A stretch of 64,000 nt of DNA from Bacteroidota bacterium (GTDB lineage: Bacteria; Bacteroidota; Bacteroidia; UKL13-3), in assembly GCA_027484685.1 (NCBI GenBank), contig JAIXSO010000013.1, positions 62,001 through 126,000 on the forward strand, read 5' to 3'. A program made the translations under genes and the position numbers. Shown in pieces: positions 5,847 to 60,629 of this stretch. Below the pieces are notes generated by a model, which was given only the letters and a program-made list of their open reading frames with translations, had not been told where the DNA came from and made no database searches. Numbering within the stretch: position 1 is the first letter of the stretch; every line of letters starts with the position of its first letter.

Positions 5847-8300
5847 TTATGCTCTTAAACTAGCTCCAACTTCTTTTTCAAAGTTCTTAATTAATTTTTT
5901 CATAACCGAATCAATTTCATCTTCGGTTAAGGTTTTGTTTTCATCTTGCAGCATAAAACTTAAAGCGTAACTTTTTTTACCGCTTTCTATTTTATCACCT
6001 TTGTATACATCAAAAACATTTACTTGCTTGATTAAATTACTATCTGTTTTTACTGCGATTTTTTCTAATTGAGCATAATTAATTGCATCATCAATTAACA
6101 AAGCTAAATCGCGCCTAACGGCTGGAAACGCTGGAACTAACTTAATGGTAGTTTTTTCGTTTTTACTTAATTCTACTAATAAATCAACATTGATATCAGC
6201 ATAAAAAACAGGCGCATTTAAATCAAATTTATCAGCTAATTTTTGATTTACAGTTCCCATTACAGCAATTTGTTTTTGCTTATAATTTACTGCTACCGCA
6301 TAATCAAAATTGGCATTTTCAGTTAACACCAACTCCAATTTAGTTAATTTACTTTTAGCTAAAATATTTTGAACAAATCCTTTGATAATATAATAGTTAG
6401 CTTGCTTGTTATTTTGATTCCAATTTTCGTTTTCTATAGAACCTGTCATGGCTAAAACCAGGTGCGATTGCTCCACATAATTTTCTAGTAAATTAATTCC
6501 ACCAGCTTCTGTTTTATTGCCCTTAAAGTATGTTTTGCCAAATTCATAAAACTTTAAATTGCTTAATTTACGGTTATTATTGTATTGCAAAGCTTCCAAA
6601 ACACTTGGTAACATATTTAAACGCATAATGTCTAAATCGCTGCTTAACGGATTCAACATTTTAACTGCATTTTGCAATTCATCCTCGCTGAAATAAGCCG
6701 ATTTTGTTAAGGTATTAGTAGCAATTTCGTTAAAACCATTTGCACTTAAATAATCAGCTAAGTTGTTTTTTAGTTTAACTTTTTGTTCAGTTTCATTGTA
6801 CGAAATAGTTGATTTAATATCGTTCCCAATTTCAATATTGTTTAAACCATAAATGCGTAAAATTTCTTCAGTAACATCGGCAGGTCTAGTAACATCAGAA
6901 CGATAAGGAGGAATTGAAATGGTTAATACATCACCTTTATCAGCTATTATTTCAATATCTAAAGCAGTTAAAATCTGTATGACTCTCTCTTTTTCAATTT
7001 CTTTTCCAATTAATTGATTTGATTTGGTCAATGAAAATTCAATAACTGTATTTTCAATTTTTGTCGGATAAACGTCAATGATTGGTGAACTAATATTACC
7101 ACCAGCTATTTCGATAATTAAATTAGCAACGCGTTTTAAGGCTATTTCGGTTATATTAGGGTCAGTTCCTCTTTCATATCTAAAACTTGCATCGGTACTC
7201 AAACCATGTGCTTTTGCAGCTTTTCTAATAGTGGCAGCATCAAAATAAGCACTTTCTAAAAATATATTTTTTGTAGTATCCGAAATTCCAGAATCTAATC
7301 CACCAAAAACCCCTGCTAATGCCAGTGGTTTTTCTGCATCACAAATCATGCACTCATGTCCTTTTAAAGTGCGTTCTGTTTTATCTAAAGTAGTAAATTT
7401 ACTGTCAACTACGGCTTTTTTCACTATTATTTGATTTCCTTTAATTTTATCAGCATCAAAAGCATGTAAAGGTTGTCCTAATTCATGTAAAACATAATTG
7501 GTAGCATCCACAATATTGTTTATTGGGCTAATGCCAATGGCGCGCAATCTATTTTGCATCCATTCAGGCGAAGGTTTTACTTCAATATTTGAAATACTCA
7601 ATCCAGTGTAACGTTTGCAACCTTCGGTATCTTCTATTGTTAAGGATACTGCTTGTTGGCTTCTATCATCTGGCTCCTGGCTTCTAGCTGCTTGCAATTC
7701 GCAATCCACACTTCGCACTTCGCATTTCGTAATTGCCCTTAAATCTCTCGCAGTACCCAAATGACTGGCAGCATCGCCTCTATTAGCTGTTAAGCCTATT
7801 TCAAAAACAAAATCGTTATAAACTTTAAAATATTCAGATGCAGGTTTTCCTACTACGTAGTTGTCGGGTAAAATTAAAATACCATCATGACTTTCGCCTA
7901 AACCAATTTCATCCTCAGCACAAATCATTCCCTCGCTCACTTCGCCTCTAATTTTGGATTTACTGATTTTGAAAGGTTCGCCTTTGCTTGGGTATAAAGT
8001 TGCTCCAACTGTTGCCACCAATACTTTTTGACCAGCGGCCACATTGGGTGCTCCGCAAACAATTTGTTTATCTTCGCCCGTGCCAATATCTACTTTACAA
8101 ACACTTAATTTGTCGGCATTTGGATGTTTTTCTCTTTCTTTAACAAAGCCAATAACAATGCCTTCTAAACCACCTTTAATGCTTTGGTAATTTTCAACAT
8201 GTTCTACTTCTAGTCCGCAACCAGTAAGCATTTGGCTTACTTCGTTAGGGGTTGAATTTATATTAATAATATCTTTTAACCAGTTATAACTTATTTTCAT
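5847..8300 (-). CDS. pheT: Phenylalanine-tRNA ligase beta subunit
   Basis: The beta subunit of the heterotetrameric PheRS, which charges tRNA-Phe. The 817 residues show an N-terminal EMAP-type tRNA-binding domain ('KEREKHPNADKLSVCKVDIG', about 55-75), the B3/B4 editing domain ('GLSTDASFRYERGTDP'), the B5 domain ('PPYRSDVTRPADVTEEILRI'), a catalytic-like core and a C-terminal anticodon-binding FDX-ACB domain ('FPAVRRDLALLIDD', 'DVYKGDKIESGKKSYALSF'). Unusually, about 28 residues between the tRNA-binding domain and B3/B4 ('ELQAARSQEPDDRSQQA' and flanks) are encoded by a 12-unit array of degenerate 7-bp repeats (7649-7732). The array keeps the frame and looks like non-coding repeat DNA. Otherwise it appears intact and functional. 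Confidence 0.96.
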   Translation of the reverse strand: MKISYNWLKDIININSTPNEVSQMLTGCGLEVEHVENYQSIKGGLEGIVIGFVKEREKHPNADKLSVCKVDIGTGEDKQIVCGAPNVAAGQKVLVATVGATLYPSKGEPFKISKSKIRGEVSEGMICAEDEIGLGESHDGILILPDNYVVGKPASEYFKVYNDFVFEIGLTANRGDAASHLGTARDLRAITKCEVRSVDCELQAARSQEPDDRSQQAVSLTIEDTEGCKRYTGLSISNIEVKPSPEWMQNRLRAIGISPINNIVDATNYVLHELGQPLHAFDADKIKGNQIIVKKAVVDSKFTTLDKTERTLKGHECMICDAEKPLALAGVFGGLDSGISDTTKNIFLESAYFDAATIRKAAKAHGLSTDASFRYERGTDPNITEIALKRVANLIIEIAGGNISSPIIDVYPTKIENTVIEFSLTKSNQLIGKEIEKERVIQILTALDIEIIADKGDVLTISIPPYRSDVTRPADVTEEILRIYGLNNIEIGNDIKSTISYNETEQKVKLKNNLADYLSANGFNEIATNTLTKSAYFSEDELQNAVKMLNPLSSDLDIMRLNMLPSVLEALQYNNNRKLSNLKFYEFGKTYFKGNKTEAGGINLLENYVEQSHLVLAMTGSIENENWNQNNKQANYYIIKGFVQNILAKSKLTKLELVLTENANFDYAVAVNYKQKQIAVMGTVNQKLADKFDLNAPVFYADINVDLLVELSKNEKTTIKLVPAFPAVRRDLALLIDDAINYAQLEKIAVKTDSNLIKQVNVFDVYKGDKIESGKKSYALSFMLQDENKTLTEDEIDSVMKKLIKNFEKEVGASLRA
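7649..7732. repeat. In-frame heptad-repeat array inside pheT
   Basis: Twelve consecutive 7-bp units on the plus strand, such as CTGGCTC, CTGGCTT, TTCGCAC and TTCGCAT, total 84 nt, which is exactly 28 codons. The phase is unbroken across the array although units drift from one core (CTGGCTT-like) to another (TTCGCAC-like). It falls in an inter-domain linker of PheT and introduces no stop codon. Confidence 0.75.
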
Positions 8301-19300: not shown

Positions 19301-21245
19301 CACCACCACCAGTGGTGATGGATCGTTCGCAATCAATCACACTACTAGTACTTTACCAGTTTCTGCATCACCTTATACTATTACTTATGCTTACACAGGG
19401 GCTGCAAATGGCTTCTTACAAGCAGCAACTAACGAAACAAGTACAGCTTTAACCGTAAATGCAGCTACCAACAATTGGATAGGTGGAACAGGTACTTGGA
19501 GCACACCAGCAAATTGGAGTTTAAGCAGAGTGCCTAATTCGTTAAACGATAATATTACCATAAGTAGCGGAACTCCCACTATGGATGCTAATTACATTTT
19601 AGGTGCGGGTAGAACTTTAACCATAAGTGGAACAGGCGCATTGGTAATTAGCCCAAGTGGTTCAATAACTATTGCTGGTGCAGCTGATTTTGGAGCAAGA
19701 CCAGTTACAGTGCAATCTGATGCTACAGGAACAGGCTCAATAGGAACTATATCAGGTACTTTAAATAACGCATCAAATGTATCTGTAGAAAGATATATTT
19801 CAGGCGCTGGACGTTATTGGAGATTTTTATCTTCACCAATTCAATCAGCAACAGTGTCTAATTGGATGAGTCAGTTTTATGTCACTGGTCCTTGTACTTT
19901 GGCACCTACTAGTGGTTTAGGAAGTTTAAACGATCAAGGTTGGCATACTTCACAAGCTAATATTGATTATCCTGGTGCATATAATGCATCTACCAACAAT
20001 AGAGCTGTAAGAAACACATCAATCAGACAATATGTAGAAGCAAACGCTACAAGTAGTTCTGCTTCGGGTCTAAATGCAGGTTGGGCTGATGTTGCAACAA
20101 ATACTGCTTTAACTCCAGGTAAAGGTTTCAGAGCTTTTATTAGAGGACCAATAGGCAATACAGGTCAATTAAATGGAACTGTAACAGGGCAGGCAGCGTT
20201 TACCCTTTCTTTAAATGGTACCGTTAATCAGGGTGCTGTAAACGCACCTACTTTAACTTATTCGGGTACTGGTTTAGGTTGGAATTTAGTGGGAAATCCT
20301 TACCCATGCGCTTACAATTGGAGCGACAATGCAACGGTAAAAACTAATATAGTAAATACTGTTCATGTGTTTGATGCAACTTCAAATGGTTACAAAAGTT
20401 ATAATACATCATCAGGTGGAACTTTGTCAAATGGTGTTATTCCTTCAGGTGCAGCATTTTTTGTTCAAGCCACAGGAAGTGGAGCTGCTTTAACCTTTAA
20501 CGAGGCTGCAAAAATTACTGGTACTGCACCAATTGGGGTTCATAAAGGAGCAAAAGCCAATGAATTTTCAATTAAGTATTCAAAAGACACTACTGAAAAT
20601 GATGAGTTTATATTAATGGTAATTGATAATGCTACTTTAAATAGCGATAGTTACGATATTATTAAATTAAGAAACGAAAACTTAAATTTATCTGCTTATG
20701 GAGAGGATAGTACGCAATTAACTTTGTCAGCTATTCCTTCAGTCGTTTCAGAAACAAGGGTAAAATTAAATGTAGAAGCTACAACTATTGGTACTTATAA
20801 TTTTGATTTTAAAAACATGGATAATTTCCAAAACGATATAACAGTTCATTTATTTGATAGATATACTAACAAAACCATTGATGTTAAAAAAAATACCAAA
20901 TACACTTTTGATATGGGTCCAGCTACTAACCAATGGGGTAATAATCGATTTGAGTTGATAATGAATTTAGACAAAACCAATGTAGAAGAATTTAGCTTAT
21001 TAAACAAAACTCACATGTTGGTTTACCCTAACCCTGCTAGTGATGTATTGAATATCAATATTAACAATGCCAATTTCAAAAACTCAGAAATAGCGGTTTA
21101 TAATATATCAGGAATTGAAGTAATAAAAACCAATATGGCTAGCAATAATTCTCAGTTAAATATTGAAAGTTTAAGTAATGGTGTTTATTTTGTAAAAGTA
21201 AGCAACCAAAACGGATTTAATAAAACAGTAAAATTTGTAAAATAG
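16320..21245 (+). CDS. Giant T9SS-exported surface protein with autotransporter-type beta repeats, copy 1
   Basis: The 1641-residue protein has a signal peptide ending near 'YSKSFSQ', then several autotransporter-associated beta-strand repeats ('NNSSYSGVTTLYAGTLTI', 'GTGTLTLSGTATYNGQIQIG', 'NNNYSGTSTINSGAELRL'), a middle beta-rich region, a 'WIGGTGTWSTPANWS' module, and a large C-terminal module beginning near 'VERYISGAGRYWRFLSSPIQ'. It ends with a type A T9SS sorting domain ('LVYPNPASDVLNI' to 'NGFNKTVKFVK'). T9SS tails direct export across the outer membrane and often attachment to the cell surface. Ser/Thr/Asn-rich composition suggests an adhesin or matrix protein (inference). A paralogue sits at 21872, and each is followed by a near-identical small gene. 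Confidence 0.9.
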   Translation: MKKNILKSTLIKGLMFFMFGIGYSKSFSQVREWTNGPGTTSWNTTNWNGSTLGGFYGQLEWRGGGNVTSNNDIGSISQWRLYFIGSKAYTLTGSSVSLFDNSGAFSWILNDATVAQNINLPINFADVGSRYSYITNRSSGSLTFGSGNNIGITGASITALRIAGNNTSASITFNGTISGSRPIDIGRDDANADQVNTRVVFNGNNSSYSGVTTLYAGTLTIPSNSALGSGLLILGNSLSATSTLAITTSTERSQGIQINNTSSASVIDVASGQTFELTGVLSGGATNTTKFGKSGTGTLTLSGTATYNGQIQIGEGSVIANSNTAISTNVTTNARGIDLGLNVGDVSTSNNVSLLANNNFTVGNSIYVASNASNATRTIGLNGSGAATFSNEIYMDGILTIAGGSGSVNLSGRLTNTGGIIASSGIVNLTASNNNYSGTSTINSGAELRLNPSANATFSSQIVLNGGTLSTTSITSTRTFTSSSTLNLNASSTIALGTGNHTLTFANSSAITWNGTTLTITGWGGTAGQTNTNGGKIFVGVGGLTGDQLAKISFLGYPGTPIILGSGELVPQSPLVTFSNTQFTGARNITRGITEVPIYRFEVNVTGVNATLNSLSFTTPVTAADGNSNYVNTDITNFKAFLTTNTIFSNSNQLGSTSPSGKTQQNAGETLINFTSLATTLNVGTTYYIWLTADVLNGAVAGRRIVVNAPTVGITGSVSGTNSATGVQTIEAVATNYYLNVGGSVTTSSNYFTQPNGGGTSMTANSLTYTSNDVILNIPISVTNTGDFTLGNGSKIVVQNGGSLTVGSANTITGTIDVNDGGTLTFNNTNISSTLGTLGSTSTIIYGASGAQAVTTRNYGNLTVSGGNTKTISGAAAVSGTLTINGTVLALGINSLAPNTLTLDGLGTKNGSWGSTAGSATYKNATYFGTTGTGTVTPSINTAATASFSNISTSQSISYGTATVSLSGKVASGAIYPANGETVSVTINGVAQTTTTTSGDGSFAINHTTSTLPVSASPYTITYAYTGAANGFLQAATNETSTALTVNAATNNWIGGTGTWSTPANWSLSRVPNSLNDNITISSGTPTMDANYILGAGRTLTISGTGALVISPSGSITIAGAADFGARPVTVQSDATGTGSIGTISGTLNNASNVSVERYISGAGRYWRFLSSPIQSATVSNWMSQFYVTGPCTLAPTSGLGSLNDQGWHTSQANIDYPGAYNASTNNRAVRNTSIRQYVEANATSSSASGLNAGWADVATNTALTPGKGFRAFIRGPIGNTGQLNGTVTGQAAFTLSLNGTVNQGAVNAPTLTYSGTGLGWNLVGNPYPCAYNWSDNATVKTNIVNTVHVFDATSNGYKSYNTSSGGTLSNGVIPSGAAFFVQATGSGAALTFNEAAKITGTAPIGVHKGAKANEFSIKYSKDTTENDEFILMVIDNATLNSDSYDIIKLRNENLNLSAYGEDSTQLTLSAIPSVVSETRVKLNVEATTIGTYNFDFKNMDNFQNDITVHLFDRYTNKTIDVKKNTKYTFDMGPATNQWGNNRFELIMNLDKTNVEEFSLLNKTHMLVYPNPASDVLNININNANFKNSEIAVYNISGIEVIKTNMASNNSQLNIESLSNGVYFVKVSNQNGFNKTVKFVK

Positions 21246-21297
21246 ACCATAGTAAATAGACCATAGACCATAGAAAGAAAACTATGGTCTATGGTCC
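21246..21297 (+). repeat. Heptad array and 15-bp-arm hairpin after T9SS gene 1
   Basis: From the base after the TAG stop, 7-bp units ACCATAG and TAAATAG repeat in perfect phase. Two ACCATAG units (from 21259) pair with their reverse complement (21282-21296) around an 8-base A-rich loop. The hairpin lies between the giant gene and the small gene and could attenuate transcription or protect mRNA ends. Confidence 0.75.
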
Positions 21298-21321
21298 ATT
21301 AACCAATAACTAATCAAGAAA

Positions 21322-51460: not shown

Positions 51461-51530
51461 CATAACTTAATTATAAAGTATGAATTATAAAGTATAAATG
51501 ATAAAGTGTGAAGTATTAAATGAATGAGTA
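51461..51530. repeat. Heptad-period array downstream of the TonB receptor terminator
   Basis: About ten 7-bp units in phase, for example AAAGTAT (twice), GAATTAT, AAATGAT, AAAGTGT and GAAGTAT. There is no coding frame of note. The rest of the spacer to 51690 is unremarkable. Confidence 0.65.
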
Positions 51531-59221: not shown

Positions 59222-59435
59222 TTGTTTATTTCCCCTTTAATCAAATAAGCAAAACAAACAACACATTTCACATAATTAATTTTATTTCTTATTATTTTTA
59301 CATCAAATCAAAACAAATGGAAATTAGTTAATAAAGCAAACAAGGTTTGCAAATGTTGAAAAATAAGGAATACCTAATTTCAATTGGCACTTCCATAAAG
59401 CTTTTGGGACTAGCCTTTAGAATAAAATCCTATTA

Positions 59436-59565
59436 TTTCAATCGCCACTTGCTTTAGCTCCTGGAACAAAAATGCCATTATATCAATCGCCACTTGCTTT
59501 AGCTCTTGGATCAAAAATGCCATTATATCAATTACCACTTGCTTTGGCTTGTGGAACCAAAACGC
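59436..59565. repeat. 45-bp tandem repeat, three copies
   Basis: Copies begin near 59441, 59486 and 59531, each with ATCGCCACTTGCTTTAGCTC-like sequence (the third is slightly diverged), spaced exactly 45 bases. A more degenerate copy may precede them. Because 45 is a multiple of three, an open frame runs through with a 15-residue repeat, but nothing else supports coding. Confidence 0.85.
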
Positions 59566-59629: not shown

Positions 59630-59637
59630 TATATTTG
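59630..59637 (+). promoter_or_regulatory. Bacteroidota -7 box of trhO
   Basis: TATATTTG is an exact TAnnTTTG match. The ATG follows 10 bases after the box, so the transcript would be leaderless or nearly so. Confidence 0.55.
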
Positions 59638-59646
59638 CAGCTTGTT

Positions 59647-60576
59647 ATGAGTGAACCATTAAATTATTTAGTATTAGCATATTATCATTACACACGAATA
59701 GAGGATGCCGAAACATACGCACCTCAACATTTGGCTTATTGCAAAAGCTTAAAAATTCGTGGTAGAATTTATATAGCCCACGAAGGTATAAATGGAACCA
59801 TTAGTGGCACACGCCAAGCTTGCGAGCAATATATGGCCGATTTAAAGGCTGATCCTCGTTTTGAAAAAATAGAATTTAAAATTGACGAAGTAGCCGAGCA
59901 TACTTTTCAGCGTATGCACTGCCGTTATAAAACCGAAATAGTACACAGCGGCTTGCGCGACCCCAATTATATTGATCCAACCAAAGAAACTGGCAAACAC
60001 CTAAAAGGGGAGGAGTTTTTAAACTTAAAAGACCAAGAAGATGTGGTAATTATTGATGTAAGAAGTAATTACGAAACACGTTTAGGTAAATTTAAAAACT
60101 CTATAACGCTCGATATAGAGAATTTTAGAGAGTTTCCCGAAAAGATAGCTGAATTAGAAAGATTTAAAGATAAAAAGGTGATTACTTGTTGCACAGGTGG
60201 TATTAAGTGCGAAAAAGCTTCAGCTCTTTTAATCAAAGAAGGTTTTAAGGATGTGTATCAGTTGCACAATGGCATTATTGGTTATGCCAAAGAAACAGGC
60301 GGAAAAGACTTTGATGGAGTGCTTTATGTATTTGATGGCCGTGTGAGCGTTCCTGTAAATGAGGTTAATCCAACAGTAATATCTAAATGTTTAAAGTGTG
60401 GCGAACCTGCTCCGCGTAATTTAAATTGTGCTAATGTGGAGTGTAATATTCAGTTTAACATGTGCGATACTTGCGCAGAAGAAATGGAAGGAGCTTGCAG
60501 CGATGAATGTAAAGCCCATCCTCGTAAACGTGAATTTAACGGCACCGGCTATTATACCCGTTTTGCAATTGATTAG
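59647..60576 (+). CDS. trhO: tRNA uridine(34) hydroxylase TrhO (rhodanese-related)
   Basis: A 309-residue enzyme that hydroxylates U34 of tRNAs in an oxygen-dependent, prephenate-independent way to give ho5U. It has an N-terminal acylphosphatase-like part ('GRIYIAHEGINGTISGTRQ'), a rhodanese domain ('VVIIDVRSNYETRLGKF') with catalytic Cys182 in 'CCTGGIKCEKASALL', and a C-terminal Cys-rich region ('CLKCGEPAPRNLNC', 'FNMCDTCAEEM', 'CSDEC') probably binding zinc. The ATG at 59647 gives the usual N-terminus. The TAG stop is followed within 5 bases by a heptad array. Confidence 0.95.
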   Translation: MSEPLNYLVLAYYHYTRIEDAETYAPQHLAYCKSLKIRGRIYIAHEGINGTISGTRQACEQYMADLKADPRFEKIEFKIDEVAEHTFQRMHCRYKTEIVHSGLRDPNYIDPTKETGKHLKGEEFLNLKDQEDVVIIDVRSNYETRLGKFKNSITLDIENFREFPEKIAELERFKDKKVITCCTGGIKCEKASALLIKEGFKDVYQLHNGIIGYAKETGGKDFDGVLYVFDGRVSVPVNEVNPTVISKCLKCGEPAPRNLNCANVECNIQFNMCDTCAEEMEGACSDECKAHPRKREFNGTGYYTRFAID

Positions 60577-60580
60577 TTTT

Positions 60581-60629
60581 TAGTTGATAGACCATAGACT
60601 ATTGACCATGTTCTATAAACTATTATTAT
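60581..60629. repeat. Heptad-period array after trhO
   Basis: Seven 7-bp units in phase: TAGTTGA, TAGACCA, then TAGACTA, TTGACCA and weaker units to TTATTAT. It begins 4 bases after the TAG stop. Confidence 0.65.

Follow-up and report, generated by a model that had tools for sequence, protein, structure and literature searches.

Degenerate 7-bp repeat arrays in the PheT interdomain linker and in other enzyme loops of a Bacteroidota genus

A run of 7-bp repeats lies within pheT, an essential gene, in the 64-kb window (the whole stretch of 64,000 nucleotides analyzed here). A first-pass annotation of this DNA had proposed the in-frame insertion of an array of the kind seen in spacers. The gene, the array, and the two halves of the array are as follows, with positions counted from the first letter of the window.

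5847 to 8300, minus strand: pheT, phenylalanine--tRNA ligase beta subunit, 817 aa, host of the array (TIGR00472, 835 bits)
7649 to 7732, minus strand: degenerate heptad array of 84 bp, PheT residues 190 to 218 (lag-7 periodicity)
7694 to 7732, minus strand: array half lying 5' on the coding strand, with GAAATGC, GAAGTGC, and GAATTGC units, family A (sequence reading)
7649 to 7693, minus strand: 3' half of the array, with AAGCAGC, TAGAAGC, and CAGGAGC units of the AAGCCAG family, D (genus alignment)

The array corresponds to nucleotides 569 to 652 of the pheT coding sequence and encodes the peptide ITKCEVRSVDCELQAARSQEPDDRSQQAV (residues 190 to 218). Twelve 7-bp steps were discernible, with degenerate units of two families in one register; Tandem Repeats Finder returned only 5.9 copies at 76%. 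The lag-7 identity of the array (47/70) was the maximum in the 64 kb for any lag from 3 to 12, its 49 lag-7 matches out of 77 were reached by only 10 of all 84-bp segments in the 64 kb, and the top lag-7 segment of that length was at position 7650. Synonymous recoding of the array peptide produced 31.8 ± 3.7 lag-7 matches, compared with 51 observed, and 1 of 20,000 recodings reached 51. Because random synonymous recoding almost never matched the observed value, the periodicity is a property of the DNA and not of the peptide, and its origin as a by-product of the peptide is ruled out. The 7-bp array of the first-pass annotation is thus real, being the top lag-7 signal of the 64 kb and not peptide driven.

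The annotation's view that the pheT array is in frame and comparable to those of spacers is supported. Similar but weaker arrays were found in three spacers of the window.

21242 to 21314, no strand assigned: intergenic ATAGACC heptads, then AAAGAAAA, then CTATGGT heptads of the inverted family, so that two arrays form a hairpin directly behind an ORF ending at 21242
51469 to 51519, no strand assigned: intergenic TATAAAG/TATGAAT heptads (repeat scan)
60573 to 60609, no strand assigned: intergenic ATAGACC/ATTGACC heptads (repeat scan)

A 45-bp tandem repeat (positions 59424 to 59562; 3.1 copies at 87%) was also present in the spacer before the ORF at 59635.

Pfam placed the tRNA-binding domain (tRNA_bind) of the query protein at residues 48 to 152 and the B3/4 domain at residues 228 to 400, so that the array codes for the linker between them, as annotated. 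The AlphaFold model computed from the PheT sequence alone had a pLDDT of 34 and was unusable; a model built with 52 relatives (mean pLDDT, 87) was used instead, in which a helix at residues 180 to 193 was followed by coil to residue 218, with block pLDDT values of 52 to 66 across residues 194 to 218. A linker was also aligned at the equivalent position of Escherichia coli PheT. The array thus encodes an interdomain linker that is predicted to be unstructured. The linker is read as permissive, and the array peptide would serve simply as a spacer.

PheT linkers were aligned for nine members of the genus, including the query (G000); the pheT gene of a tenth genome was split across two contigs. 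All genomes compared are drafts, representing ten species, and several are probably metagenome derived, judging from contig numbers. The linker was found at the same position in nine of nine members and was periodic at 7 bp in eight, the only one without clear periodicity being G002, whose linker had the modal length of 35 aa. Between fixed anchors, linkers measured 34 to 36 aa in seven species, 42 aa in the query, and 51 aa in G004. The query linker therefore exceeded the mode by seven codons (21 bp, three units), a surplus contained in the 3' half of the array in the same 7-bp register as the 5' half, and the 5' half (family A) was common to G001, G006, G007, and G003. Linker families varied by species (A/D, B, or C/D). 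Between the query and its sister species G009, the flanks of the linker were 93 to 97% identical and the linker was 56 to 71% identical; the corresponding values for G006 and G008 were 94 to 97% and 53 to 71%. G009 and G008, which belong to different clades, had linkers that were 87 to 94% identical, compared with 75 to 89% for the remainder of pheT, and had a 40-bp stretch in common that extended over nonrepeat DNA. Periodic PheT linkers were not confined to this genus, occurring at loci L095, L098, L099, and L100 of further genera in the family; no such linker was found among the loci read from genus g2 or among the relatives readable beyond the family.

An insertion of 84 bp, or 28 codons, is contradicted by these comparisons, since all nine genus PheTs have the linker and the array-free linker of G002 equals the modal length. 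The annotation had further expected that only unit counts in multiples of three would be tolerated and that relatives would lack the segment or differ by steps of seven residues. The query, at seven codons (21 bp) above the mode, agrees with this expectation on both points; the lengths of 34, 36, and 51 aa (±1 and +16 residues) do not fall on seven-codon steps, and the linker was never absent. Conservation of the segment in sequence and length, which the annotation had named as contrary to its view, was not observed with regard to sequence, as the divergence between G000 and G009 shows. The pheT array does not represent a simple insertion, because this loop and loops of other enzymes hold runs that differ among species at a length that usually stays approximately constant.

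The other enzyme loops were found by BLAST searches with the linker alleles, which revealed unit families scattered over the genomes of the genus (up to 30 matches per genome). The majority of the matches read were intergenic and several were within ORFs; about 40 more candidate places lay outside the set of matches read. Hosts of coding arrays identified with NCBIfam were PheT, MetG, ValS, HisS, IleS, PurL, and HutH, and further coding arrays were found in MurG, MurC, and MenD, hosts recognized from N-terminal sequence only, and in a FAD-dependent oxidoreductase (FADox). Early in the search, most arrays were in PheT, ValS, HisS, IleS, and MetG; an enrichment in aminoacyl-tRNA synthetases is not claimed, because arrays in MurG, MurC, PurL, MenD, HutH, and FADox then appeared.

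Seven loops (PheT, two in MetG, two in ValS, HisS, and FADox) were aligned across the genus. Forty-nine of 61 linkers scored at least 9 at lag 7, compared with 0 to 1 of 61 at lags 5, 8, 10, 11, and 13, a proportion that is not a genome-wide rate because each loop was selected for carrying an array in one or more species. At six of the seven loops, there were species pairs with flanks at least 90% identical but linkers at most 65% identical. The units of the MetG loop, for example, were GCACTTC in G007 and G008, ATGGACC in G004, G005, and G002, GAACTTC in G009, and GCAACTG followed by GCCAGAA in G000 and G001. Loops of equal or nearly equal length without a clear array were found for PheT and HisS in G002 and for MetG_2 in G002, G004, G007, and G008. 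At MetG_1, the whole block was replaced at nearly equal length between G004 and G007. Loop length changed from 15 aa to between 24 and 28 aa at ValS_1, from 15 to 30 aa at MetG_1, and from 15 to 41 aa at FADox, so that insertion happens as well. In this species-level comparison of ten species, the reading frame stayed open at each of the seven loops in every species. Alleles were shared across clades at HisS, ValS_1, and FADox; in the case of HisS, the sharing could be due to vertical inheritance plus homogenization. The whole ValS gene of G000 (L285) was further from that of the sister species than other genes are, a sequence divergence that suggests transfer or replacement.

Small palindromes of the type TCCCGATnnnATCGGGA were present in frame inside coding arrays of FADox in G003 (L290), ValS in G006 (L284), MetG in G009 (L304), and PheT in a second genus (L098), and a longer palindrome, TTCGACTCCGCTCAGC..GAGCGAAGTCGAA, was present in FADox of G009. 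No paper printing the palindrome CCCGATAGCTATCGGG was found in the openly licensed literature.

Seven exact unit families were each found in more than one of the seven unrelated loops, giving 16 sharing pairs, compared with a mean of 0.8 and a maximum of 5 in the null (1,000 letter shuffles), with rotation and strand allowed. Unlinked loops and many spacers contained the same few unit families, which occurred in both orientations. To these loops, a census of 1.57 Mb of G007, sampled irrespective of arrays, adds 48 arrays at lag 7, compared with 0 to 2 at lags 4, 5, 6, 9, 10, 11, and 13 and 13 at lag 8. An exact unlinked family mate was present for 39 of 53 arrays (null, 6.3), and 33 of 41 arrays with a score of at least 17 were outside ORFs of at least 120 aa. 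ORFs of at least 150 aa contained 11 arrays at lag 7 (0 to 2 at lags 5, 8, 10, 11, and 13), some of the 11 being of low complexity or in a doubtful ORF of 420 aa. That open frame (C12:3337-3725; L315) is built for the most part from heptad arrays, contains a repeated RLPRFA motif, and is probably not a gene. Identity between units was 0.76 at lag 7 and had fallen to 0.61 by lag 56 (off register, 0.31). Because identity drops with distance, units drift along the array in register, and the copying of all units from one fixed template is disfavored.

Several other features of the census are recorded here. The period-8 arrays of G007 (GATTTAGA, GATTTGTT, and TTAAGTGT; e.g., C16:29418-29534, C7:42740-42832, and C38:19435-19545), 13 in 1.57 Mb, were nearly all intergenic. 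At C19:5945-6195, a block of approximately 100 bp was directly duplicated within a heptad array, which shows copying on a larger scale within arrays. In a check of phage sequences, the AGCCAG pattern returned 104 stretches and three perfect AAATTCG units occurred in only 3 viral contigs; on the latter count, phages were rejected as a vehicle for the arrays.

Collectively, the loops and spacers contain arrays at fixed sites that switch unit family, recur across sites and orientations, share alleles across clades, and drift in register. From the comparison of the draft genomes of ten species, we infer, with moderate confidence, that dispersed heptad arrays in permissive loops undergo repeated in-place rewriting, through slippage or template switching and through exchange between arrays or species, under a filter for open frame and loop length. 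Polymerase slippage or a transient 7-nt misalignment would alter arrays in place, and arrays would swap short patches with one another (ectopically) or between species. Purifying selection would discard frame breaks and stops and maintain loop length, so that loops would act as fixed sites where the unit family changes while the place, the frame, and usually the approximate length persist. This mixture is favored because slippage alone would not give shared families, insertion alone would not give array-free loops of the same length, and recombination alone would not give periodicity. The block replacement at MetG_1 (G004 versus G007) counts against rewriting, as slippage alone does not readily produce it and a donor was not found. 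A stronger version, in which a dedicated or at least highly active process in this group of Bacteroidota writes and overwrites heptad DNA in spacers and loops, drawing on a limited number of families, and loops of essential enzymes change as cassettes more quickly than their flanks, is a tentative idea that we consider unlikely.

Local, microsatellite-like slippage, by which each loop would grow its own array from native sequence with no exchange among loci, is also improbable as the whole explanation. It accords with the drift of units along arrays, with the additional 21 bp of the query PheT, and with the proposal of slippage for heptads as the commonest repeats of 5 to 11 nt in most genomes (Mrazek 2007, as cited in PMC4679880 and PMC4692102). 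Random seeds would, however, yield arbitrary units, not the same few families at unlinked sites in both orientations; furthermore, the majority of length differences do not correspond to multiples of seven codons, and the MetG_1 block was exchanged whole at nearly equal length. A model of mobile heptad arrays that enter tolerant loops in frame, in the manner of Rickettsia palindromic elements, generalizes the idea of the first-pass annotation. It would account for the occurrence of the same families, in both orientations, in spacers and in the loops of other enzymes and for the much greater length of some loops in array-bearing species, and it has a precedent in Rickettsia (PMC10969869). We nevertheless regard such mobility as quite unlikely, given array-free loops of equal length, arrays with neither fixed ends nor target duplication, and the reuse of one site with different families, which requires replacement rather than insertion. 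Interspecies homologous recombination alone, with flanks providing homology and repeats incidental to the swapping of linker alleles, is highly unlikely: it matches the B allele common to G009 and G008, the cross-clade alleles of HisS, ValS_1, and FADox, and the distant ValS gene of G000 but leaves unexplained both the nearly universal 7-bp periodicity of the exchanged linkers and the sharing of families between unrelated loops.

Heptameric repeats are known, but no explanation exists for how they spread and turn over. Fixed, orthologous, in-frame loops offer a clean readout of array change; in them, arrays switch family, may hold their length without whole-unit steps, and share families across unlinked sites. 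Between close species, the linker of an essential enzyme can be exchanged in full, a point relevant to indel-based phylogeny and to loop evolution. The wider multiloop pattern is more interesting than the single pheT array.

Among known systems, phase-variable simple sequence repeats (contingency loci) likewise place tandem repeats in coding DNA, whereas the units here are degenerate, the frame was kept in every species examined, and an on/off switch was not apparent. Rickettsia palindromic elements (Ogata 2000 and 2002, described in the review PMC10969869) are similar in being short dispersed repeats in frame in unrelated housekeeping genes whose proteins tolerate them. These elements are MITE-like palindromes of approximately 150 bp with a conserved peptide; in contrast, the heptads are nonpalindromic, their peptide is not conserved, and sites are reused with different units. 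A palindromic core with defined ends of the Rickettsia type was absent from the arrays, which are direct repeats without fixed ends, some with small palindromes.

Dispersed heptameric repeats include the heptanucleotide repeats of Calothrix, GGGNATC-type repeats in Xanthomonas and Nostoc, and TAACTGA heptamers in Beggiatoaceae, Cyanobacteria, and some Bacteroidetes; they are partly intragenic (68% intergenic in Nostoc PCC 7120), and their length and sequence vary between close relatives (PMC4692102, PMC4679880). The arrays described here resemble them in consisting of 7-bp units in tandem, in being dispersed across the genome in either orientation, and in lying partly within genes, and the 1.57 Mb of G007 showed the 7-bp excess, the unlinked family mates, and the mostly intergenic placement of such repeats. 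A search of the openly licensed literature, which is an incomplete sample, found no report of coding heptad arrays of this kind in Bacteroidetes. The arrays are grouped here with the dispersed heptameric repeats. Unlike the dispersed heptameric repeats in published reports, which center on one or a few unit sequences per genome, mostly intergenic, the arrays of this genus comprise many degenerate families that replace one another, in register, at fixed housekeeping-enzyme loops.
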